The position numbers and the translations under genes are program-made. A model generated the notes under the pieces. That model saw only the letters and a program-made list of their open reading frames with translations, made no database searches and was not told the origin of the DNA. This document shows, piece after piece, positions 3,054 through 14,328 of a DNA stretch of 64,000 bases (the first letter of the stretch is position 1; every line of letters starts with the position of its first letter). The DNA lies in contig NZ_CP132942.1 in the NCBI RefSeq assembly GCF_040359615.1, positions 496,001-560,000 of the forward strand, written 5' to 3'. The DNA is from Tunturibacter psychrotolerans. GTDB taxonomy: Bacteria > Acidobacteriota > Terriglobia > Terriglobales > Acidobacteriaceae.

Positions 3054-5267
3054 CTAAAAGACACGCCCTATGCGGAAGTAGAACCGTGCATGACCGTAGT
3101 CTCCTACTGAACCGGCTACCAGGACGGGTCCAAAGATTGTGTTGACCAAAAGTCCCGCCGCGGCATCCATGGGAAGATTTGGCGGGCTCGGACCGTTGGG
3201 GAGTTTATACGTCTTCCCCACCTCCAAGACACCAAGGAAGTCCACTGTGCTACCGAGCAAAGGTGGCAGGTGAGCCAGTTCTCGGATGTAGCCTATCTGT
3301 CCGAGGAAATATTGGTTTGTGAGCAGCTCATTGGTGCTCCAGGCTACCAACCGTTGAGAGCCACCGAGAGAGAAGGCGGGTACGCCGGCCTTGTAGCCGT
3401 AGGTACTACCACCATACGCACCTACAAATATTGAAGACGGCTTGTTCAAGCGGAAGAAGTCCTGCGCTTGAATCTCGGTCACTGGAAAGGGGCCCGGCGC
3501 AGCGGGATTGACCGTGTATCCTTTTGTGTAAGCCAAGAGACTGACTCCGGAGCGTGGGATAACGGGTTGATCCAGTGTCGTCAGCTGATATTGAATCCTG
3601 ACGTCTCCGGTCGCTCCTGAAGTTGTAGGCAGAGTCGGCACGTTGCCGATCTCTGGATAAATCTTTTGATAACCACCTTCATATCCAAGTCGGAGTTCGC
3701 CCGTTCGTCCGAAAGCATATCCTGTGTCGATGCCGCCAAGAAACTCTCGTAGGCGGTAGCTTGCCTGCAACGTATTGCCTGAGTAGACATTCAATTGCTG
3801 ACTGTTGAGCCCCGCTCTGGGTGCGATAAACCAATTGCTGGATGGGGTGTACGGGTGGTAGTACTCAGTATCCAGAAGGTACTGAGATCCGACAACAACG
3901 TCAGTGCGTAACTCGGATCGGTAACTCCCAAAGTCCAGAAATGTTACACGAGCACCAATACTGAATAAGACATTGTTGTAGTCCGACCCGTCGATCAGGA
4001 TGAGTGGCCGTACGATAGGAGGCGCATAGGCCTTCTGTTCGGTCTGAATCTGAAGACCCTGTTGGCCATCCTTCTCAACCATTGAATACGTGGAGGTTGA
4101 GAAGCGACCCTGTCCGATGATGGACATCATGTCCTGACCCAACGTCTCTGTGTCGATTGGTTTCCCCACCAGCCCAGACAGCTGCTTTTCCATTCCCTGC
4201 TTCATTACAGGAGAAGCTGTGCCGGTGACTTCGACAAAGGTCGGTATCGGTACACTCTTGCGCCGCGAATTGCGTACTGCGAGATATTCCTCCCATTCGC
4301 CCGGGCTTACCGAGTACGCTGCTAAAACGGCTGCTTTTGCTGCTGCGGCGTCATAGCCTACTTTGATAATGGCATCGGCCTTATCGTAATCAAGAGTCGT
4401 GTACTTCTGGAGGGGCACTGTCACCAAGATGTCGGCTTGCTCCATCGACCGCAGTTCGTTGGCTGCAATCATGACGGAGATGGACTGTCCTAGCACACCG
4501 TAGCTGGGTAGAGTTGCTTTTGGACTTAAGGGCTCAGTCTCAAGGTGAATTCCGAGGACTACATCGGCGCCCATATCTCTGGCAACGTCGATCGGAATAT
4601 TGTTGAGCAAGCCACCATCTGCATAAAGATGGTCTCCCGACCGGACCGGCGAAAAGATCCCAGGTAGCGACATGGTCGATCTCATTGCGAGGGAGAGAGA
4701 ACCATCATGAAAGACATGCGGCTTGCCGGAGACCAAGTCTGTCGCTACGCATGCGAAGGGGATAGGCAGATCGTTGAAGGTAGGGAGCTCTGAGTAAGGG
4801 AGCGCAACACGGTCGAGAATCAGGTCAACCTGTTCGCCGGTATTGAAGCCCGCCGGGAATTGCAGACCTTTCCGCAAGCCAAACTCAAGAGAACCGGGAA
4901 CCTCGTGAGCGTCTTGTTTGCGCCGGAAAGAAAGATCGGTGAATGGAGTTTCGCCGCTCAGCACCTGATCCCAATCGATCCCGTTGATAAGTTCTCTGAC
5001 CTCGGCTGGAGAGCGCCCTGTCGCATAGATTCCACCGACTAAGCCACCCATGCTGGTTCCTGCGACATAACTCACCGGGATGTGATGCTCCTCCATCCAG
5101 GTGATGACTCCAATATGAGCGAGTCCCAGGGCTCCCCCGCCTTCGAGCACCAAACCTAGCTTGGGTCGCGTCGCGCTATCCCGCTTGGGTGGTACCTGTG
5201 AATAGCCGCAGCTGCTGATCGCCAAAGCGCCAAGTAGAAACAATGATCGCATGGCTCTGGAGTGCAT
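3054..5267 (-). CDS. patatin-like phospholipase with C-terminal outer-membrane barrel
   Basis: 737 residues from ATG 5267, chosen over an in-frame TTG 33 bases upstream because GAGAGG sits 5 nt before the ATG. An export signal (about 1-24) ends in ISSC, which could be a lipobox. The patatin domain follows: oxyanion-hole GGGALG (near 44), nucleophile elbow GTSMGG (near 70) and a DGG catalytic dyad motif (LYADGGLLNN, near 220). A POTRA-like segment (about 350-415) leads into a beta-barrel of about 300 residues ending in phenylalanine, as in Omp85-type proteins. This is the layout of PlpD-type type Vd autotransporter lipases. The predicted activity is phospholipase A1/lipase at the cell surface. 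The 42-bp gap to the upstream gene supports cotranscription. Confidence 0.92.
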   Translation of the reverse strand: MHSRAMRSLFLLGALAISSCGYSQVPPKRDSATRPKLGLVLEGGGALGLAHIGVITWMEEHHIPVSYVAGTSMGGLVGGIYATGRSPAEVRELINGIDWDQVLSGETPFTDLSFRRKQDAHEVPGSLEFGLRKGLQFPAGFNTGEQVDLILDRVALPYSELPTFNDLPIPFACVATDLVSGKPHVFHDGSLSLAMRSTMSLPGIFSPVRSGDHLYADGGLLNNIPIDVARDMGADVVLGIHLETEPLSPKATLPSYGVLGQSISVMIAANELRSMEQADILVTVPLQKYTTLDYDKADAIIKVGYDAAAAKAAVLAAYSVSPGEWEEYLAVRNSRRKSVPIPTFVEVTGTASPVMKQGMEKQLSGLVGKPIDTETLGQDMMSIIGQGRFSTSTYSMVEKDGQQGLQIQTEQKAYAPPIVRPLILIDGSDYNNVLFSIGARVTFLDFGSYRSELRTDVVVGSQYLLDTEYYHPYTPSSNWFIAPRAGLNSQQLNVYSGNTLQASYRLREFLGGIDTGYAFGRTGELRLGYEGGYQKIYPEIGNVPTLPTTSGATGDVRIQYQLTTLDQPVIPRSGVSLLAYTKGYTVNPAAPGPFPVTEIQAQDFFRLNKPSSIFVGAYGGSTYGYKAGVPAFSLGGSQRLVAWSTNELLTNQYFLGQIGYIRELAHLPPLLGSTVDFLGVLEVGKTYKLPNGPSPPNLPMDAAAGLLVNTIFGPVLVAGSVGDYGHARFYFRIGRVF

Positions 5268-5309
5268 GACTGCCTCTCTGAAACGGGTATTGATCTTCAA
5301 CGTCTGCGA

Positions 5310-6014
5310 TCAACCGATGGGTTGATAGGAAGAGTTCTGAATCATTACACCCAGCTGTTTACTGACCCCAGTCACCTGATTCGAAGTGACGTGATTGGTA
5401 CCGTCGGGCAGCTTATCGTACTGCACGGCAATTCTCACTGCGTCGCTCGGATCTGTAAGGTAACTGGCAACCTGTACGGACAAGAGTGCCTTCTGCTGCC
5501 GATTGAATACGAGAGTGACGGAATCGCCGGGCTTCAGGTAGTTCTTGATGATCAGGCTGACCGTACCGGCTGCCCCGTTGGGTTGCAGTGAGATATCGCC
5601 GCGTTGGTAAGCCTGGTCGAGCGCCTGCGAATCAACCTGTGCATACTGTTTGCCGAGCTCTGCGATTTGCTGTCCATAATCTTTAAACTCTTCCGTCTTC
5701 TTAGCGACTATACGTTGCTTAAATCGTCCCCCGCTGGGGGCGGGAGGTGCCTGCGGATTGAGCTCGATCTTTTGCTGCTGACCGTCTGGTCCTATTCGAA
5801 CTTGAAACTGTTGTGTCTTTTTAACTTCACCTTTAATGCTGGTCGTCTGCTGTTCCATCCATGTGTAGCGTGCGAGGGATTGTTTGTTAGCCGCTGCAGA
5901 CTGTTTGATCTCCATCAACTTTTGCTGCATCTCGGGATTTTGAGCCCAAATTTGAGGGACAGAGCTAAGAAGAGAGGTCGCGATTAGCGCTGTCAATAAT
6001 GAATGTCTAAACAT
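5310..6014 (-). CDS. secreted protein of unknown function
   Basis: 234 residues from ATG 6014, preferred over a TTG at 6050 because GGGAGA lies just ahead of it and the signal peptide then begins immediately (MFRHSLLTALIATSLLSSV, cut near IWAQ). The mature protein is Gln/Lys-rich with a predicted helical N-terminal half (QQKLMEIKQSAAANKQSLA) and a C-terminal beta-rich half (SVTLVFNRQQKALLSVQVAS). I do not recognise the family, though similar secreted proteins starting with a Y-x-W-x-E-x-x-x motif occur in soil bacteria. It lies between DUF4136 (43-bp gap) and the patatin gene (42-bp gap), which makes it a member of the envelope operon. Confidence 0.8.
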   Translation of the reverse strand: MFRHSLLTALIATSLLSSVPQIWAQNPEMQQKLMEIKQSAAANKQSLARYTWMEQQTTSIKGEVKKTQQFQVRIGPDGQQQKIELNPQAPPAPSGGRFKQRIVAKKTEEFKDYGQQIAELGKQYAQVDSQALDQAYQRGDISLQPNGAAGTVSLIIKNYLKPGDSVTLVFNRQQKALLSVQVASYLTDPSDAVRIAVQYDKLPDGTNHVTSNQVTGVSKQLGVMIQNSSYQPIG

Positions 6015-6057
6015 ATATTCTCCCGGTTTGTTCATTCGTAAACTCGTCAATGAGTAA

Positions 6058-6567
6058 CTAGCTCTTTGGCCACTGCTTGAACATCTTCGTCACAGCCTTC
6101 TGAACCAACTGCTGGTTCTTATTGCCATTGTTGTCCAAGGTGTTTTGTGCAATGCCACGCCAGACTAAGCTCTGACCCTTCGCGTCATACAGATCTACGA
6201 TCAACGTGCCAATCACGTTTTGCTGCGGGGTGATGCTCCCCATACCGCCTCCAAACCCGCGCATTCCCATCGCGGTGTAGGAGGTTTGCTCTTTCATTCC
6301 ACCGTTGGCCGTGACGAGTATGTCAGGCTTCTGTGATTCTTCGACTTTTTGAAGCCCCTTACTCTGGAGTGCGGCATCGATATCCTGTACCGCTACCTGT
6401 GCCAGGATCGAGTTCTGAACCTTATTAGCGTTGTCTGAACCCCAAGCGTAAGTGTGGTACTGGGAAAAACTCTGGCTCTGGTTGTAGTTCACGGAGACTG
6501 TTTGTCCGGTAGCAACCGCGACCGTCGAACACAGTATCATCACGCACAATGCGAATTTAGTTTTCAT
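6058..6567 (-). CDS. DUF4136 family exported protein
   Basis: 169 residues, ATG 6567 with GAGAGG upstream. A signal peptide (about 1-21, ending VATGQ) is followed by the DUF4136 pattern: an early F-x-x-Y-x-T-Y-A-W segment, an internal DIDAALQSKGL motif, PDILVTANGG, and a distal GTLIVDLYDAKGQSLVWRG strand pair. Members are exported, often lipoproteins, but this one lacks a lipobox cysteine. Function is unknown. It sits 87 bp after the sulfatase gene and 43 bp before the next secreted protein. Confidence 0.85.
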   Translation of the reverse strand: MKTKFALCVMILCSTVAVATGQTVSVNYNQSQSFSQYHTYAWGSDNANKVQNSILAQVAVQDIDAALQSKGLQKVEESQKPDILVTANGGMKEQTSYTAMGMRGFGGGMGSITPQQNVIGTLIVDLYDAKGQSLVWRGIAQNTLDNNGNKNQQLVQKAVTKMFKQWPKS

Positions 6568-6654: not shown

Positions 6655-8316
6655 TTACTCATTGCCCGCCGATGCTGCTTTCTGTGCGGCCTCTACTTTT
6701 TCTCTCAAATCCTGGATACTGAAGTTTCCGCCCGCTTGCATTGGGGGATATTCAATCATCGACGGAATGTATTTTGCGATGACCTGTCCGGGCACGACGA
6801 ACCGCCACATCTCGTGTTTGAACGAGTCCCAATATGCGATAGAGCCGTTAGTGAAGCCGTTGGAAGGCCAACCCATGCGTTCGAAAGGATCCTGCCGAAG
6901 GTTTGTGAGAATGGGCATGTTTGGATAGACAGTCGGCCCTATCCATCCTTGTGGCTGAACAATGAACTGGTATTTGTAGTTGTCATACCGAAGTGCCCCG
7001 AGCTTTGTCTGGGCGAAATACCAGATCTCATGCCGCTTGGAAGGTCCGTTGCCGGTCAGCATATCAGTCTGGTCGTACCCGTCGAGATGAACCTTGTAGC
7101 TGCGGTCGCCCAGCTTCACACCTTTGAGTAGTTGACCGTTGATATCCGGATTTCCCGCTGCTGCAACCAGCGTCGGAAACCAATCGAGGCCGGACATGAT
7201 GCCATTCGATACCGTGTCGGCTCTAACGTGTCCTGGCCAACGGATCAAAGCTGGAACCCTGAAAGAGCCTTCGGTGACCTCTCCCTTTGCGCCCGCGAAC
7301 GGGGTTGTGCCGCCATCGGGCCAGGTGTATACCTCAGCGCCGTTGTCGGTGGTAAACACAACGATCGTATTGTCCTCTTCACCGGAATCATGAACCCACT
7401 TCAGGACTACGCCAATGTTGTCATCCATCTGCTTGAGTGCCGCTTCTTCCAATCCGAAGTCGGTCTCCGTGTTGCGCATTCCGTCGTACTTCGGCGACAG
7501 ATGAGTTAACACGTGCGCCCGTGTGGGATTCATCCAGACGAAGAACGGCTTATCGTCCTTCTTGGCTTTCTCCATGAATTCGATGGTTGATTGTGTAATC
7601 ACCTCATCAAACGTGCCCATGTCGTATTTAATTCCCGGCCTTGGGTCCGGCGGCAGAGGTCCTTCATCCACTATCTTCTGTTTACCCACCTCTCCCCATC
7701 GCGGCTGTACCGTGGAGTCAGATGTGTCATTTGCCCAGCAATGAATCAGATTTCGGGGACCAACCGTGTCCTTCCATTCGGCGGGGTAGGTGTAATAAAA
7801 GGGATCTTCCATCGCGTTAAGGTGATAAAGATAGCCGAAGTATTCGTCGAAGCCGTGTACGCACGGTAACGCGGAGTTGTGGTCGCCGAGATGGTTTTTG
7901 CCAAATTGGCCAGTCTCATAACCAAGTGACTTTAGCGCGGTTGCGATCGTTGGCGCTTGTGCTGGCAAGCCGATCAACGAGCCTGCTTGACCGACCGTGG
8001 TCAAGCCTGTACGTATCGGCAGTTCGCCCGTAATGAAGTTGGCGCGACCGGCAGTGCAACTAGCCTCGGCGTAGTAATCGGTAAGCCTCATCCCCTGCTT
8101 AGCGAATTTGTCGAGATTAGGAGTCGCGTTCAGCATGATGCCAGAGTTGTAAGAGCCGAGATTGAACCATCCGATATCATCCCCCATGATCACGATGATG
8201 TTTGGCTTTTTGGCGGATGGAGCTTGCGCTTGCAGAACCTGGCACACGCTAACGAAGAGCATTACGACGGTAAAAAGAAGTACCGCCATCTGCTTGCTTC
8301 CTGCTTTAAAGTTCAT
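6655..8316 (-). CDS. secreted type I sulfatase (arylsulfatase family)
   Basis: 553 residues from ATG 8316, chosen because GAGGAGA precedes it; a longer in-frame reading would overlap the upstream gene. A signal peptide (about 1-30, cut after VLQAQ) precedes PNIIVIMGDD, whose Asp pair (about 46-47) binds the metal. The modification site is CTAGR (residues 87-91), fitting C-x-A/P-x-R, so the Cys is expected to become formylglycine in the export pathway. TTDNGAE and the K/H-bearing strands of the alkaline-phosphatase fold are also present. It should hydrolyse sulfate esters outside the cytoplasm; the substrate is unknown. No formylglycine-generating enzyme is in the window. It is the second gene of the sigma-54 operon, 37 bp after the ABM gene. 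Confidence 0.93.
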   Translation of the reverse strand: MNFKAGSKQMAVLLFTVVMLFVSVCQVLQAQAPSAKKPNIIVIMGDDIGWFNLGSYNSGIMLNATPNLDKFAKQGMRLTDYYAEASCTAGRANFITGELPIRTGLTTVGQAGSLIGLPAQAPTIATALKSLGYETGQFGKNHLGDHNSALPCVHGFDEYFGYLYHLNAMEDPFYYTYPAEWKDTVGPRNLIHCWANDTSDSTVQPRWGEVGKQKIVDEGPLPPDPRPGIKYDMGTFDEVITQSTIEFMEKAKKDDKPFFVWMNPTRAHVLTHLSPKYDGMRNTETDFGLEEAALKQMDDNIGVVLKWVHDSGEEDNTIVVFTTDNGAEVYTWPDGGTTPFAGAKGEVTEGSFRVPALIRWPGHVRADTVSNGIMSGLDWFPTLVAAAGNPDINGQLLKGVKLGDRSYKVHLDGYDQTDMLTGNGPSKRHEIWYFAQTKLGALRYDNYKYQFIVQPQGWIGPTVYPNMPILTNLRQDPFERMGWPSNGFTNGSIAYWDSFKHEMWRFVVPGQVIAKYIPSMIEYPPMQAGGNFSIQDLREKVEAAQKAASAGNE

Positions 8317-8353: not shown

Positions 8354-8683
8354 CTAGCTGTCGGAATAACGTACGGCCTCGATGTAATTGATCCCAAACA
8401 CATCCCTGATTGAATGAATCTCAAGTACCGGTACCTCGGGGGATGTCTCCATAAGCATCAACAGATCAGTGAAGCAGTTCGATCGAATGTGCGATTTCAA
8501 CTCTGGTTCGCTCGACCAGTCCTGCTCAAAGCAGAGAGCGTCTGGATTATCGACTTCCTGGTAGATCCGGCCCGCAATGAATCCCCGGTCCATTCGCGAG
8601 GCAACTCTGATAGATCGCAGGGCCTCGACAGCTTCCATGGAACGATTGGGTCGAGCCATCATTCTTAGGCTGATTTGGAACAT
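8354..8683 (-). CDS. antibiotic biosynthesis monooxygenase (ABM) fold protein
   Basis: 109 residues, ATG 8683. The pattern of a single ABM ferredoxin-like domain is clear: an N-terminal strand (MFQISLRMMARPNRS), a helix (MEAVEALRSI), a central strand with CFEQDWSS, and SHIRSNCFTDLLMLME. Small ABM proteins act as quinol or heme monooxygenases or as dimeric ligand binders. The reaction here is unknown, and the His/Asn residues of a catalytic site are not certain. It is cytoplasmic, with no signal peptide, unlike its exported neighbours. It is the first gene behind sigma-54 promoter P2. The predicted transcript would start about one base before this ATG, so either the message is leaderless or translation begins at Met8/Met9. 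Confidence 0.82.
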   Translation of the reverse strand: MFQISLRMMARPNRSMEAVEALRSIRVASRMDRGFIAGRIYQEVDNPDALCFEQDWSSEPELKSHIRSNCFTDLLMLMETSPEVPVLEIHSIRDVFGINYIEAVRYSDS

Positions 8684-8694
8684 GACTCTCTAAG

Positions 8695-8711
8695 AGCAAT
8701 CGAGTGACCAA
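8695..8711 (-). promoter_or_regulatory. sigma-54 promoter P2 for the ABM-sulfatase operon
   Basis: Read on the minus strand the site is TTGGTCACTCGATTGCT, with GG (8709-8708) and GC (8697-8696) exactly 10 nt apart and a TTGC core, matching the -24/-12 consensus. Predicted +1 is near 8684. Twin activator palindromes lie about 132 and 152 bp upstream. Confidence 0.75.
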
Positions 8712-8808
8712 CTTTCTTCGTATGAGCGCAGAGATCTTAAGTAGCGAAGGGTAAGAGGCTTATGAACTAAAGCCTCCAATGCATCCTGTTTGTCGCGTTC
8801 CCCTGAGG

Positions 8809-8847
8809 CTCCGACTAATCGGAGGAGACTCCGAAGGGTCGGAGTCT
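8809..8847. promoter_or_regulatory. twin upstream activator palindromes of P2
   Basis: There are two inverted repeats with a 4-nt spacer. CTCCGA-CTAA-TCGGAG spans 8809-8824. The other, with 9-bp perfect arms around ACTCCGA-AGGG-TCGGAGT, spans 8826-8847. Their centres (8816.5 and 8836.5) are 20 bp apart, so they lie on the same DNA face. The same sequence and geometry recur at 10812-10850, next to the sigma-54 activator gene. Confidence 0.78.
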
Positions 8848-8936
8848 GCGAAGATATCTCCTGCTTATGAAGAACTCTCTCAACGGGCAGCATGCGCCGG
8901 GCGCTAGGCCCGAGATGTGTACGATCAAACGGCTAC

Positions 8937-9653
8937 TCATTTCACGGAAAAGAACATATTCAGCTTGAGTCCAATGCCTTCGAGTTGGCTGTTCGGACTC
9001 TTACCGGTGTTGTTCTGATGTTCGTAGTAGAGATCGAATTCGTATCTCTTCTTTATAGGAAACAAGCAACCTGCATAAAGTTCGGTTGTACCCCATTTTT
9101 GATACTGTTCCTGGTAATAAACCTCGGCACTGATGTAGGGGATTGGGTGATAGGAACGAATGTTCATTGGCCTCTCGGTCTGAAGCCTGTTGCGATAGCG
9201 CCACTTGAATGTTCCGTTCGTCCAGTCCAGGTCGGCACGATTTCTGTCTGTGAGCAGAAGTTGGAGCCTCAGCGGATAGTGCCCTGTTATCGTCAGCACC
9301 ATTCGATTGGTTGAGGGCGAGCCGGGGGTTGCAAGATACCGGTATCCCTCAGTGAAGATCAACGGACGAGCCTTTGCCTCATCGAGGTCAAACGCTGTTA
9401 TCTTCTTCAATCGGACTAGAGGCTTTAGATAGAGCTCCAGATCTGGGCCTATCGTTAATTGAGTTGGATCGCCACCCTCTCTGGTATTTGCGGCCTGCAG
9501 TCTGAATCGCACGCTTGCATTCACCTTGAGATATGGGTCCAGCTCGGGCAGAGCTTCTGTCTGCTGCGCCAACGCGGCAGCCGTGCACGTCGTCAGCAGT
9601 GCTAAGGACAACGTGAGCTTCGGAAGGGACATCAAGATGGTGTGGCGATCCAT
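8937..9653 (-). CDS. DUF2490 family outer-membrane protein
   Basis: 238 residues from ATG 9653; an ATG at 9632 (231 residues) is equally possible. Longer in-frame readings begin at a TTG next to the preceding stop and would bury the signal peptide. The signal sequence (TLSLALLTTCTAAALAQ) is followed by DUF2490 hallmarks: alternating beta strands, DRNRADLDWTNGTFKWRYRNR, PYISAEVYYQ, and a FPIKKRYEFDLYYEHQNNT strand near the end. The protein ends in phenylalanine-rich strands, consistent with a small outer-membrane barrel. Function is unknown. It directly follows the other barrel gene (stop at 9738), so the two form a pair behind sigma-54 promoter P1. Confidence 0.82.
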   Translation of the reverse strand: MDRHTILMSLPKLTLSLALLTTCTAAALAQQTEALPELDPYLKVNASVRFRLQAANTREGGDPTQLTIGPDLELYLKPLVRLKKITAFDLDEAKARPLIFTEGYRYLATPGSPSTNRMVLTITGHYPLRLQLLLTDRNRADLDWTNGTFKWRYRNRLQTERPMNIRSYHPIPYISAEVYYQEQYQKWGTTELYAGCLFPIKKRYEFDLYYEHQNNTGKSPNSQLEGIGLKLNMFFSVK

Positions 9654-9737
9654 GTGTCCACAAGTTGAAGATTGCCTTGCAACAAAGACCTCCCATAGTG
9701 AGAGCTGGCGTCTGCAACGGTTTGAGACGTGGCGCAA

Positions 9738-10589
9738 CTACTTGAGATTAATGGTGACTCCGAGCAATATGCCTTGCTGAGCAGCGTCATAGACAAAGTT
9801 GGAGGCCGGACGATAGTTGATGTCCAGATAGCGCCAGCCAACCCCAAGCATGACCGCGGGTTTAATTCTGTAACCCAAATACGCCGCCACTTGATAGTCC
9901 AGGTTCGCCTGGCCGGCTCCCGCATCGCCAAGGATCGTCACCGAGGCCTTCGGTGAAAGTGCCATACTGATCTTTGCTCCAGCAATCACGTCCACGAAGT
10001 TAGCTGCTTGGGAGTAGTTGTCCAAAAGCCCTGAAGGCTGGAAGCTCAGATTTTCGCCCAGATGCCAATACCTAAGTCCCACCAGTGCGTCAGCTTTTAG
10101 CTTTGGACTATCCAGAAGGCGGTAACCGACCTTAGGCGTAAAGATAGTCTGAGTTGCCTTCGCCTTGATAGAGGTCAACCCAGGGAACGGACTCTCTGGA
10201 GTCGCTGTGTCATCGGAGAGCTTGATCCACATGAAGTCAATCGGCACAACAAAACGTCGCTTGCGAGCTTCAACTGCACCCATGAGACCAATGTTCAACT
10301 TCGAGATTACGTCTCCGGCGCTTGCGTGAAAGCTAGCGGAACGGTCGCGTGCGCCGATCGTGCCATGCACCCCCGCAAACCATAGATAAGGGCTGATTGC
10401 GAGATGCCAGTTGTCGTCGTTTGCGGGATTAACCGCCTGTGCGCCGGTCGCGCTGGCGGTCTGATCTTGAGAAGTCATACCCACAGCCTGCTGCCCAATC
10501 GCAGTAGTAGGTGCAAATGACCCAAGCAAAGCCGCCAGCACAACAAAACATGTCGGCTGTCGCCGTTGAAACCGTACCGATCGAGTCAT
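9738..10589 (-). CDS. outer-membrane beta-barrel protein
   Basis: 283 residues, ATG 10589 with AGAGGA four bases upstream. A signal peptide (about 1-33, cut near AIGQQ) and a short Gln/Ser/Ala linker precede a region of amphipathic strands (WHLAISPYLWFAGVHG, FVVPIDFMWIKLSDD, VGYRLLDSPKLKADALVGL, AYLGYRIKPAVMLGVGWRY). It ends GVTINLK, typical of OmpA-like or OprB-like barrels of unknown substrate. No plug or peptidoglycan-binding domain is visible. It is the first gene of the P1 unit, with an untranslated leader of about 100 nt between the predicted +1 (about 10692) and the start codon. Confidence 0.82.
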   Translation of the reverse strand: MTRSVRFQRRQPTCFVVLAALLGSFAPTTAIGQQAVGMTSQDQTASATGAQAVNPANDDNWHLAISPYLWFAGVHGTIGARDRSASFHASAGDVISKLNIGLMGAVEARKRRFVVPIDFMWIKLSDDTATPESPFPGLTSIKAKATQTIFTPKVGYRLLDSPKLKADALVGLRYWHLGENLSFQPSGLLDNYSQAANFVDVIAGAKISMALSPKASVTILGDAGAGQANLDYQVAAYLGYRIKPAVMLGVGWRYLDINYRPASNFVYDAAQQGILLGVTINLK

Positions 10590-10700
10590 AGGATCCTCTT
10601 ATAAGGTTGAACCTGCGTTGTTTGGTCAGTCGATCTGGTCCTCGTTGCTTCGCAAAATGCGCCGCTTCATCGATCCGGAATCGCAACGAGTTACATCACT

Positions 10701-10720
10701 AATGCACCCTTAGGGCCAAA
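10701..10720 (-). promoter_or_regulatory. sigma-54 promoter P1 for the beta-barrel/DUF2490 pair
   Basis: On the minus strand the site reads TTTGGCCCTAAGGGTGCATT. GG (10717-10716) and GC (10705-10704) are separated by exactly 10 nt, and the -12 element is TGCA. Predicted +1 is near 10692. The twin palindromes at 10812-10850 lie about 130 and 150 bp upstream, nearly the same distances as at P2. Confidence 0.75.
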
Positions 10721-10811
10721 GGCTGCGGATGATAACTTTCGTCCAGGTCGCTGTTATAGAAAGACTTACCTTCTCTTTCCAATAAAGACGCAGTACCTCC
10801 TCAATGAAATT

Positions 10812-10850
10812 AACTCCGACCGTTCGGAGTTAGCTCCGACTCTTCGGAGT
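10812..10850. promoter_or_regulatory. twin upstream activator palindromes of P1
   Basis: AACTCCGA-CCGT-TCGGAGTT (10812-10831, 8-bp perfect arms) is followed by a second copy, CTCCGA-CTCT-TCGGAG (10834-10849). The centres (10821.5 and 10841.5) are 20 bp apart. They lie between the minus-strand barrel gene and the divergent activator gene. They are the best candidates for that activator's binding site, and autoregulation is possible. Confidence 0.78.
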
Positions 10851-11052
10851 TTGGCCGTAGCGCCAAAATTACTGCATCCGTCAATTTTTGATGTTCGCTA
10901 ACCGACAAATAAATGGGCAAGTCTTCGACTTGCCGTGATACCTTACGCTTGCTCACAACAACTGAATTTAGTAGGTTTCAGGCGGCAATCATTGCTGTGA
11001 GCCGGAACCGCCAGCATCGGGCCCGTTCGTGTACTCAGGAGAGAAGGTCGTC

Positions 11053-12687
11053 ATGACCCATTCAGCTCTGCATGTCACGGAAGAATTGTGTGAAGAAAAG
11101 CTACCGATTCAGGGGGGACCCTATCCTTCAGCCACGCTGAGTTCATATCTAGACGATAGACTCAGATTCGAAATGTTGATGACGGAGCTTTCAACGCAGT
11201 TCGCAGGCGTGACCTCCGCGTCCATCGATGAAAAGACCGTCTGTGCCCAAAAGCGAATTGCAGAAACCCTGGAGCTCGACCGCAGCACTCTCGTTCAATT
11301 ACGTGATAACGAGCGTTTCGTGCTAACCCACAGCTGGCAACTCCCTGACCTAAAGCCATTTCCTGGATTCGCGATCAAAGATCTCCCTTGGATGGCGAAC
11401 GAAATTCTCTGTGGTGAAACGGTCTGTTTCGCCTCCATCGACGATCTTCCCGCCGAAGCGTACATGGAGAAGGAAGTCGCACGTCGGTTCGGACCACGCT
11501 CCAACGCTACCTTCCCACTTAGAGTAGGGGGCAAGGTCATCGGAGCGTTGGCGTTCGGGACAGTACACCATGAGCGAGTTTGGCCAGAGACGCTCATTAC
11601 CCGGTTGAAGTTTTTTGTCGAGATGATTGGGAGTGCTCTTGCGCGAACCCGCGCAGAAGATGACACGAAGAAAGCGCTCGAGGAAGTGCAGCGCCTTCGC
11701 GATCAGCTTCAACGTGAAAACATCTATTTGCAACAGGAAGTGAAGTCTGCTCGCGGGCACAGAGGCCTGATAGGCAATAGCACAGCGCTCCGAAAGGTGC
11801 TGGAACAGGTCGATCAGGTGGCCGGCACTAACTCCAGCGTTCTCTTGTGTGGTGAAACAGGAACAGGAAAAGAGCTCATCGCGTCCGCTATCCATGAACT
11901 AAGTCCGCGCGGCAAACGGCCCATGGTCAGGTTGAACTGCGCAGCGATCCCGGAAACTCTTATCGAGAGTGAACTCTTTGGCCGCGAGAAGGGTGCCTAC
12001 ACAGGGGCGCTTTCAAGGCAGGCTGGGCGCTTTGAAGTGGCTCACGGCTCGACGCTCTTTCTGGATGAGATCGGAGAGCTACCTCTTGACGTGCAATCCA
12101 AGCTGCTGCGCGCACTCCAGGAAAAGCAGGTCGAACGCCTGGGCAGCTCCAAGAGCATATCTTTTGATGTGCGAATTGTTGCGGCGACCAATCGTCATCT
12201 GGAGACAGAGATCCGGGAGAAACGATTCAGGAGCGATCTCTTCTATCGATTGAATGTATTCCCGATCCACATGCCAGCTCTGCGTGACCGCATCGAGGAT
12301 ATTCCTTTACTTGTCGAGGCCTTTGTTCATGAGTTCTCAAAGTCCTTCGGTAAGCCAATCGAATCGATAGACAAAGACTGCATGCAGGCTCTGCAAATGT
12401 ATCGATGGCCGGGCAATATCCGTGAACTACGCAATACTGTTGAACGGGCCATGATTCTTGCCAATGGTCCAAGACTCCGTATCTACCCTCCATCAAGCGC
12501 TTTGGGGGAGCTCACACATAGCATGCTTCTAAGCGATGCAGAGCGTGGGCATCTACGCAATGTTCTTGAAATCACAGGTGGAAGGATACGAGGCAAAGGT
12601 GGAGCGGCGGAATTGCTCGGTCTGAAACCGACGACTCTAGATTCCATGTTGGTTCGCCATGGCATCACTTCGAAACTCGAACACTGA
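11053..12687 (+). CDS. sigma-54-dependent activator, GAF-AAA+-Fis (FhlA/NorR type)
   Basis: 544 residues from ATG 11053, preferred over an in-frame GTG at 11029 because GAAGG sits just upstream. Layout: a GAF sensor (about 35-198), a coiled-coil linker (about 200-235), an AAA+ domain with Walker A GETGTGKE (267-274), the sigma-54 loop GAYTGA (314-319, the Phe of GAFTGA being Tyr) and Walker B LFLDEIGE (335-342), and a Fis-like helix-turn-helix at the end (GRIRGKGGAAELLGLKPTTL). The GAF ligand is unknown. The C-terminus resembles FhlA-family regulators. It is divergent from the barrel operon, with matching twin palindromes and GG-N10-GC promoters at both minus-strand units. The inferred role is to switch on the envelope block in response to a small-molecule or redox signal. 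Confidence 0.95.
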   Translation: MTHSALHVTEELCEEKLPIQGGPYPSATLSSYLDDRLRFEMLMTELSTQFAGVTSASIDEKTVCAQKRIAETLELDRSTLVQLRDNERFVLTHSWQLPDLKPFPGFAIKDLPWMANEILCGETVCFASIDDLPAEAYMEKEVARRFGPRSNATFPLRVGGKVIGALAFGTVHHERVWPETLITRLKFFVEMIGSALARTRAEDDTKKALEEVQRLRDQLQRENIYLQQEVKSARGHRGLIGNSTALRKVLEQVDQVAGTNSSVLLCGETGTGKELIASAIHELSPRGKRPMVRLNCAAIPETLIESELFGREKGAYTGALSRQAGRFEVAHGSTLFLDEIGELPLDVQSKLLRALQEKQVERLGSSKSISFDVRIVAATNRHLETEIREKRFRSDLFYRLNVFPIHMPALRDRIEDIPLLVEAFVHEFSKSFGKPIESIDKDCMQALQMYRWPGNIRELRNTVERAMILANGPRLRIYPPSSALGELTHSMLLSDAERGHLRNVLEITGGRIRGKGGAAELLGLKPTTLDSMLVRHGITSKLEH

Positions 12688-12867: not shown

Positions 12868-13853
12868 CTAGAACTCGCTATCTCTAGAGCATGGAATCAT
12901 TGCAACCCTTTCCGCCCGTTCGTACCAGCTCGGTAGGTCCTTAAACGAATGGAGATGATAATGCAATGGATTTGTCGATCTAAGGGTCTCAATTAAATGA
13001 TTTGGCCAGTCTGCGAAGAGACTCACAACTGCCTGGCGCATGTAGGCTCTCGATTTCACATCGAGATATTCGAAATTCATCGGCGCACCACTCGGATGTC
13101 TGGAAGTGATTTGGTGCGAACCTGGCAGCATTTGCGCCCTCAGGTTCTCCGCTGAGGTAGAGGGACGGCACATAACGTAGAGAAGTCTCGCCAACACCCC
13201 GAAAAAACTTTCACAACTGGATTTCCTGGCCAATGAGCCCAGCACGTGACACAGTCTCAAAGTCCTTTTGTCCGCGCGCTCGGATGGTGCGCAACTAGCG
13301 ACTGATCGATTGCAGTAAGCGCACCGTTGCAGGTCCTTTCCTGGATTAACCAAGCTCGAGTTGAGAAATCGAGACGCACTTCGAAATGGTTTCCGCAGTG
13401 AGGACAGCTTTCTCGAAGGAAGCAACTGTGCCTTAAACAGCAGGTGTATATGGCGATAGACCACGGGAGCTGATGGTGACCCTTCTCCCCAAGACAAGTT
13501 GGGCAATACTGGTTACCCATAACACCGTATGACCCTTGCCATAGACGCCACGGCATAGGCGCGGCTCCCAGTGGTCGATAGACCGGTGTCCTCGACAGTC
13601 CATGAAGGCTGGAAGGTAGGCATTCAATTACCTGTTCTTTTTCGACTCCAATCGCCTCTGCGATGGAGTCTATGAACGGACTTGTGTACGCCATGCGATC
13701 CAACGCTGCAACAGGTTGGTCGTTCCCAAGCCATGCACAAAGGCTTCTAACGGACACGTTATTCCCGGCTGCAATCCTAAGAATCCAGGAAGACAAAATC
13801 TCGTCGTCAAGACGGCGTGGGTGCCATGGTAAGAGATTTGACACGTTCGTCAC
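12868..13853 (-). pseudogene. TniQ-like transposition protein, frameshifted (copy 1)
   Basis: The upstream frame (start GTG at 13853) gives the TniQ N-terminus: NLLPWHPRRLDDEILSSW, then a zinc-binding region CPTCL...CCLRH...CPHCGNHFEVR. Near 13350 the coding sense moves to the other frame, which supplies the next zinc pair (NPGKDLQRCAYCNRS) and the C-terminal part ending at 12868 (RAYMRQAVVSLFADWPNHL, FKDLPSWYERA). A single indel about two-fifths of the way in therefore splits the gene. TniQ/TnsD-type proteins choose the target site for Tn7- and Tn5053-like transposons. No TniA/TnsB transposase or TniB/TnsC ATPase is present nearby. A shorter copy, about 90% identical by eye, lies at 35606-36016. 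Confidence 0.7.
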
Positions 13854-13936: not shown

Positions 13937-14328
13937 GACTCAGGGCTATTGGATACCAGATGGAATTCTTCAGCGATACGGGAGATTGGCTTCACGGGAA
14001 GCAACTGTACGAGAAGCTGGTTATTCGGTAACGTGCCGAAGGCAGGGACCGACCTGAATAGCTCGATGAGTGCATTGGCCTGATATCGTCATCCGAGGAT
14101 CACGCCCGGACGGATCGGCGGACACAAACCGACATCCCGGCACTAGCCTGACCCTATCTTCCACCGCGCCAATCAGAAAAGCCCACAGAAAATGTGTGGC
14201 TTCGGCGGAAATCCTTCCCCCAGGGCTTTAAAGGCTCACCCGGTTTGGACTGAGCCTTTTTGCTGGTCGCTAACATCCCATCATTCCTCTTGACAATATC
14301 TGTTATAAGGAATATCGTTGGGAAGTAG
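13937..14328. other. non-coding stretch between TniQ remnant and marR
   Basis: No convincing gene. It contains a terminator-like hairpin at 14231-14262 (GGCTCA ... TGAGCC followed by TTTTT) with no matching gene upstream on the plus strand, suggesting remnant DNA. The marR promoter (TTGACA at 14290-14295) and operator lie at the right end. Confidence 0.4.
14301..14320. promoter_or_regulatory. putative MarR operator, copy 1 (marR promoter)
   Basis: TGTTATAAGGAATATCGTTG overlaps the spacer and -10 region of a TTGACA-led promoter and ends 8 nt before the marR ATG. The same 20-mer with three changes recurs at 14812-14831, upstream of yceI. Confidence 0.6.

Follow-up and report, generated by a model that had tools for sequence, protein, structure and literature searches.

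We found that paired palindromes of the form CTCCGA-N4-TCGGAG, lying in a stretch of 64,000 nucleotides from Tunturibacter psychrotolerans (hereafter the window, G000:C1:496001-560000 of a 5.64 Mb genome), are very probably the sites of a one-component activator encoded at 11053-12687, which would act from them on the predicted sigma-54 promoters of a sulfatase and cell-envelope regulon. Judged by its sequence, the activator is best read as an enhancer-binding protein of GAF-AAA+-helix-turn-helix (HTH) type with its own regulon, its binding and the transcription start sites being predicted. The original prediction had proposed two sigma-54 promoters, P1 and P2, that share a twin-palindrome enhancer, with an activator gene divergent from P1, and it was supported by the recurrence of the layout in relatives and by the co-occurrence of pairs and activator. 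The elements concerned are as follows, in positions of the window.

10834..10849, no strand assigned: P1 enhancer palindrome CTCCGACTCTTCGGAG, promoter-distal; exact match, one of seven in the genome
10814..10829, no strand assigned: P1 enhancer palindrome CTCCGACCGTTCGGAG, promoter-proximal; its centre lies 20 bp from that of the distal one
10702..10719, minus strand: predicted P1 sigma-54 element TTGGCCCTAAGGGTGCAT; its first G lies 96 nt from the pair, with the +1 expected at 10692
8829..8844, no strand assigned: P2 enhancer palindrome CTCCGAAGGGTCGGAG, promoter-distal; exact match
8809..8824, no strand assigned: P2 enhancer palindrome CTCCGACTAATCGGAG, promoter-proximal; its centre lies 20 bp from that of the distal one
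8694..8711, minus strand: predicted P2 sigma-54 element TTGGTCACTCGATTGCTC; its first G lies 99 nt from the pair, with the +1 expected at 8684
11053..12687, plus strand: activator gene with GAF, AAA+ and FhlA-like HTH (PF01590, PF00158, PF25601); 544 aa from the ATG at 11053, the open reading frame (ORF) opening with GTG at 11029

Within the window, exact matches to the palindrome occurred only four times, at the two pairs 8809-8844 and 10814-10849. All four palindromes claimed beforehand were exact to the base, both pairs had the announced spacing of 20 bp between centres, and the two minus-strand GG-N10-GC promoters could be located as predicted elements. Recomputed distances from palindrome centres to the predicted +1 were 129/149 (P1) and 132/152 (P2), at most one base off the 130/150 and 132/152 given at first. 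The whole genome held seven exact copies, that is, three pairs and one single site, and a control pattern read backwards had no match in it. All three pairs were spaced 20 bp centre to centre, and no further pair was found in the 5.64 Mb at up to three mismatches. The third unit, P3, carries an identical pair 9 kb before the window (G000:C1:487010-487045), the first G of its element TTGGTCAGGCGTTTGCT lying 98 nt beyond the pair; TTGG-N10-GC thus follows each of the three pairs, at 96, 99, and 98 nt. Because P3 was absent from the original finding, it provides independent support for the proposed layout. Single palindromes with three mismatches allowed were not enriched in the window (51 seen vs 41 expected, with 10 of 100 shuffles reaching 51), so the signal there lies in exact, paired sites. 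The sole unpaired exact palindrome of the genome (L002:8562-8577, G000:C1:2361561) lies inside a 1047-aa reading frame, sensor-kinase-like by eye, and is probably due to chance.

The surroundings of these sites had a feature of their own. Two TniQ copies, one in the window (12868-13853) and one before it (L001:953-2011, G000:C1:478953-480011), shared 91.8% identity over 1015 bp; that of the window is split into two frames. They enclose all three palindrome pairs and the activator gene, an arrangement like that of a mobile island.

The activator was found to have the sequence features of sigma-54 enhancer-binding proteins, namely an AAA+ domain with Walker A and a GAFTGA-type loop, a C-terminal HTH, and putative upstream sites at a nearly fixed distance from -24/-12 promoter elements. 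Its domains are GAF, Sigma54_activat (PF00158, E 6.3e-71), and AAA_lid_14, with GETGTGKE as Walker A and GAYTGA as the Y variant of GAFTGA. The Pfam scan detected neither a separate HTH match nor a receiver domain. The HTH was recognized by alignment to the FhlA model, in which residues to 548 reach position 688 of 692, and this C-terminus aligned in 17 of 18 rows, the remaining one (G805) being misframed. Among the matches listed, several homologues were likewise 544 aa long, and many of the 120 were named formate hydrogenlyase transcriptional activator. The protein reached no cut-off among the 25 NCBIfam models listed: NifA was rejected at an equivalog score of 372.6 vs 528.85 needed, NorR at 349 vs 476, and FhlA at 363.2 vs 830, the targets that we scanned being, moreover, sulfatase and envelope genes. 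The earlier description of an FhlA/NorR-type activator therefore stood as a class (GAF/AAA+/HTH) and fell as a name. GAYTGA replaced GAFTGA in six of eight acidobacterial activators, G849 and G805 having GAFTGA. An F-to-Y change in the contact loop of NorR causes, according to the available part of PMC2941729, a partial bypass of repression.

The proposed check, a search of relatives for such pairs upstream of GG-N10-GC sites, bore out the layout. We collected pairs with at most three mismatches and a spacing of 19 or 20 bp from the loci retrieved for ten genomes that have the activator, five of the family (G000, G363, G257, G278, and G157) and five of Bradyrhizobium (G398, G399, G400, G401, and G523), which gave 27 pairs. 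At 24 pairs, one side or both had TGG-N10-GC at a distance of 84-101 nt, as compared with 5.2% of 20,000 places picked at random in this DNA; 21 pairs had it at the nearly fixed distance of 95-100 nt, as compared with 1.7% of these places. The other three promoter-bearing pairs had it at 85 and 89 nt (both in G363) and at 93 nt (G401), and TTGG and TTGC were both present in 17 of the 24 elements. Centre spacing was 20 bp, and 19 bp in Bradyrhizobium. Genome G363 kept the P1 distance with a nearly identical element, as well as the 99 nt of P2. In G398, two units (L065:8141-8175 and L064:2548-2582) had sigma-54 elements on both sides, at 97/97 and 97/88 nt; the pair between a sulfatase and a DUF2092 gene had its element at 97 nt on either side. 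One symmetric enhancer likely serves two operons in this genome. A five-mismatch pair near the activator of G257, with TGG-N10-GC at 94 nt, stayed outside the counts. A third enhancer site, as in NorR, was rejected, the offset scan around the 24 pairs giving a best mean match of 4.2 of 12 upstream and 4.0 downstream (background 3.1, sd 0.44, 104 offsets).

Exact pairs were also sought in 84,980 species genomes, a set that may not include the genome of the window, with the two palindromes 0-30 bp apart. The 31 stretches obtained were read as 42 pairs, 14 at 19-20 bp and 28 at other spacings. The former occurred only in Edaphobacter (six pairs, two genomes) and Bradyrhizobium (eight pairs, four genomes), and 13 of the 14 had a promoter element at 85-100 nt. 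Among the 28 others, 13 came from three Bacteroidota arrays, and one had TGG-N10-GC at 84-101 nt. With spacings of 22-45 bp or arrays and this single promoter in 28, pairs of Bacteroidota, Propionibacteriaceae, Clostridia, Mycobacterium, and Kitasatospora were set aside as unrelated, except for that of Chitinophaga, which is described below. In the Bacteroidota loci L031, L035, and L042, the same 16-bp palindrome was arrayed every 42 bp.

The co-occurrence of pairs and activator, the other part of the proposed check, was exact. We used a family sample of 398 genomes, evenly drawn from a larger group (activator limit E <= 1e-120), and a sample of 213 genomes of the genus Bradyrhizobium (E <= 1e-110). 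The activator was found in five of the 398 family genomes, and pairs with at most two mismatches in exactly the same five; in Bradyrhizobium, both were found in the same four of 213. Genome G399, outside the 213, had both as well. Taking the genomes as independent, which they are not, the chance of such co-occurrence was 1.2e-11 in the family and 1.2e-8 in Bradyrhizobium. A three-mismatch pair in G315, with neither promoter nor activator, was treated as chance. The pair came directly after the activator stop codon in G157, G399, G400, and both copies of G523, and the sites were farther from the activator gene in G278, G257, and G398. A palindrome with at most one mismatch lay within 1,500 nt of the gene for 10 of 14 homologues vs one of nine paralogues, the latter from Chitinophaga; in this comparison, the upstream flank of G805 was misplaced, the locus being clipped by the contig end. 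Searching the activator in 376 genomes of the phylum added G729, G849, and G805, and searching 375 genomes of the order added no genome.

Several observations weigh against this interpretation. The E-value limits were fixed after the gap between orthologues and paralogues had been seen. The 27 pairs are not independent, several being orthologous, so that a binomial estimate overstates the case; three of them, all in Bradyrhizobium (two in G398, one in G523), had no promoter element; and the set leaves out a two-mismatch pair, G398:C41:3023, which lies outside the fetched stretches. Beside the homologues of G729 and G849, at 48-50% identity, palindromes stood singly, and the 35 kb and 5.4 kb searched yielded no twin with exact arms and no twin at the proper distance from a promoter element. 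A TGG-N10-GC about 42 nt after the single site of G849, noticed by eye and not counted, is outside the usual distance. In G805, the pair was a variant with CTACGA-like arms, three mismatches per palindrome and a spacing of 18 bp; TGG-N10-GC followed 99 nt on, ahead of a gene that looked ABM-like by eye. An exact pair of Chitinophaga filiformis (L027:7176-7213 / L059:1437-1474), 22 bp apart, comes directly after the stop of a sigma-54 activator with a similar HTH, and no GG-N10-GC was present within 400 nt downstream. Finally, co-occurrence alone leaves another gene of the island possible as the binder.

The homologue of Methylomagnum (51% over query residues 198-538) had no twin palindrome. 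That of Gemmatirosa was 41.6% identical over 89%, and a search of 17.4 kb of its plasmid for any twin palindrome returned two matches, each of two palindromes 18 bp apart with CGCGA-type arms, at L103:11232-11265 and 14124-14157, near two apparent tandem activator homologues. Both twins end 101 nt before TGGTCC-N5-TTGC elements, and so does a third, weaker twin scored with the half-site of the first two, in a locus that holds 63 TGG-N10-GC. The targets differ by reading, being a hydrolase and efflux genes. This layout is the strongest hint that the spacing itself may matter.

A possibility was that the palindromes are operators of another regulator of the same gene island, the sigma-54 activator acting from other sites or not here. 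Activator and targets do lie in an island-like block between the two TniQ copies, where any island gene would co-occur with the pairs, and P2 and P3 are not adjacent to the activator. However, a pair-to-promoter distance of 95-100 nt in 21 of 27 pairs is what is expected of a sigma-54 enhancer, the activator alone among the families compared was present in all five Bradyrhizobium genomes, and in several genomes the pair directly follows its gene. The Gemmatirosa homologue, which has a different HTH, is also accompanied by twin sites of different sequence at the same place. We regard another regulator as improbable.

The palindromes might also have nothing to do with promoter control and be RNA or DNA hairpins, acting as tandem terminators or spreading as mobile palindromic repeats. 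A 6-bp stem closed by a 4-nt loop could form from each 16-mer, a stop codon immediately precedes several pairs, seven T in a row come after one pair in 24, and some Bacteroidota have the 42-bp arrays mentioned above. Yet no gene ends at the P1 pair, which is flanked by divergent genes; the spacing and the distance to the -24 element hold although loop bases and flanks vary; only three pairs exist in 5.64 Mb; and at least five T within the next eight bases were found for one pair in 24 only. We thus hold hairpins to be very unlikely. As for coincidence, GG-N10-GC is common, and TGG-N10-GC lies 84-101 nt from one random place in about twenty (5.2%, see above), but the pairs had it in 24 of 27 cases, including all three of this genome, and TTGG together with TTGC in 17 of 24 elements. 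Chance distances would hardly produce this, and we give them almost no weight.

If the pairs are indeed sites of the activator, a mechanism can be proposed by analogy with its protein family. Enhancer-binding proteins, as presented in the available parts of PMC7175178 and PMC2941729, bind upstream sites by their HTH, have a regulatory domain that checks the AAA+ ring, and reach by looping the sigma-54 polymerase, which is then remodelled. Here, the HTH pairs of the activator would sit on the twin palindromes as two dimers, and the palindromes, about two turns apart, would place both dimers on one face of the DNA. The GAF regulatory domain may restrain the AAA+ ring until a signal frees it. The DNA would loop from the pair, about 97 nt upstream, to the sigma-54 promoter, where the ring, presumably assembled as a hexamer, would remodel the sigma-54 polymerase and open the promoter at the expense of ATP, leading to transcription of the sulfatase and envelope operons.

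The genes predicted to be controlled from P1 and P2 are listed below.

9738..10589, minus strand: first gene after P1, encoding 283 aa; without Pfam match, taken for an outer-membrane barrel by inspection only
8937..9737, minus strand: second gene after P1, a DUF2490 protein (PF10677, E 1.7e-9); true start probably internal
8354..8683, minus strand: first gene after P2, an ABM-domain monooxygenase-like protein (PF03992, E 2.6e-5)
6655..8316, minus strand: type I sulfatase after P2 (PF00884, E 2.3e-52); 553 aa from the ATG at 8316, the listed ORF opening at 8424
6058..6567, minus strand: DUF4136 protein (PF13590), probable member of the P2 operon; gene order kept in G363, G257, and G278
5310..6050, minus strand: 246-aa predicted secreted protein, probable member of the P2 operon; no Pfam match, gene order conserved
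3054..5300, minus strand: patatin-like phospholipase (PF01734), probable member of the P2 operon; gene order conserved

A like-sized gene with a similar start occupies in G363 the place of the 283-aa gene, and P3 precedes genes for DUF1254/DUF1214 and OmpA proteins. The -12 C is 12-13 nt from the ATG of the ABM gene in five genomes (window 8683-8711, L069, L072, L073, and L074), 12 nt in the window, a short gap that G805 does not share. At P2, this gap predicts a near-leaderless sigma-54 transcript of the ABM gene. The window sulfatase has a C-T-A-G-R formylglycine motif (CTAGR) at residue 123 of the long ORF and the arylsulfatase 7aj0 as best solved match (E 4.6e-57); the motif, C/S-x-A/P-x-R, was kept in all 11 sulfatases examined. 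No formate or hydrogenase genes were found among the target genes scanned.

Elsewhere, too, the units stand by homologous sulfatase genes. The acidobacterial and Bradyrhizobium loci had sulfatases of two sizes in common, those near 550 aa being 42-78% identical and the large ones, of 815-911 aa, 50-72%. They also shared a HAD-type hydrolase (51-54%), DUF1254 (30-35%), a small protein of some 100 aa (39-51%), and, with weak similarity, DUF2092 (23-24%). A similarity search in plasmid DNA gave partial matches over the sulfatase part only (best 8 of 199 records). Between G257 and the Bradyrhizobium G398, sulfatases were 78% identical and activators 48%, which suggests that target operons may move between lineages. 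A pair of genes for proteins of 296 aa and 513-525 aa (weakly DyP-like), 64% and 73% identical between G363 and the Bradyrhizobium G399, was also noticed (L070:11557-14000 and L067:1023-3507); it sits near twin-palindrome sulfatase operons. The nature of the target genes suggests an extracellular sulfate ester or envelope damage as the activating cue. Sigma-54 was proposed to govern the cell exterior (PMC3162934, part of the text available), which fits the theme of envelope and secreted proteins.

Several known systems come close. With NorR of E. coli, as far as the accessible text of PMC2941729 describes it, the activator shares the one-component GAF-AAA+-HTH plan and multiple upstream sites, which scaffold the oligomer. 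NorR needs three enhancer sites, however, whereas two are present here and the scan found no third; its GAF domain holds the NO-sensing iron, and the window activator is set apart from it by score. To the FhlA model (NCBIfam PRK15429), the central and C-terminal domains align almost to its end, but the site given for FhlA in the part of PMC7658346 at hand is a palindrome of TGA/TC type and not CTCCGA. The GcsR/TyrR-type activators of Pseudomonas (PMC4894688) also have an RpoN promoter preceded by tandem palindromes, whose two arms enclose N4 (TGTAACG-N4-CGTTCCG); they differ by three sites, another half-site, another sensor class, and other targets. Activator motifs of Desulfovibrio were predicted by the same approach, from palindromes near sigma-54 promoters and activator genes, but the string TCGGA is absent from the main text of PMC4641369, the check covering the text. 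The PEP-CTERM response regulator (NCBIfam TIGR02915), a sigma-54 activator, aligns at 225-546 and differs in score, 330.2 bits vs 502.6 needed, and in its receiver domain, of which none was found in the window activator. The motif had been thought to look new; as a matter of fact, CTCCGA-N4-TCGGAG was not found as an activator site in the open-licence literature, whose coverage was partial, so that this is no proof of novelty. Strings TCGGAG/CTCCGA in the sigma-54 literature were, where checked, primers.

Beyond this regulon, the comparisons raise the possibility, which we put forward tentatively and at slightly less than even chances, that the activator clade follows a rigid enhancer grammar outliving the DNA sequence. 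This grammar would consist of two sites for dimers, spaced 18-20 bp and ending about 96-101 nt ahead of the -24 element. It would hold in Acidobacteriota, Bradyrhizobium, and Gemmatimonadota alike, the half-site drifting together with the HTH (CTCCGA, CTACGA-like, TCGCGA). Two divergent operons could then be driven by a single symmetric pair, and new sulfatase operons might be recruited by gaining a 36-bp unit. Textbooks stress the flexibility of loop length for sigma-54 activators; a rigid grammar would make fixed loop geometry, and not flexible looping, a functional requirement. The same layout with a drifting half-site offers a natural series for studying how sigma-54 activators read DNA and how loop length is constrained. 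If the proposed assignment is true, it would supply a binding site and a list of targets for an activator most of whose listed homologues bear the name of formate hydrogenlyase activator, a generic name, or none. It would also bring sulfatases, DUF1254/DUF1214, and further orphan proteins of the envelope together, in two phyla, under a single predicted regulon.

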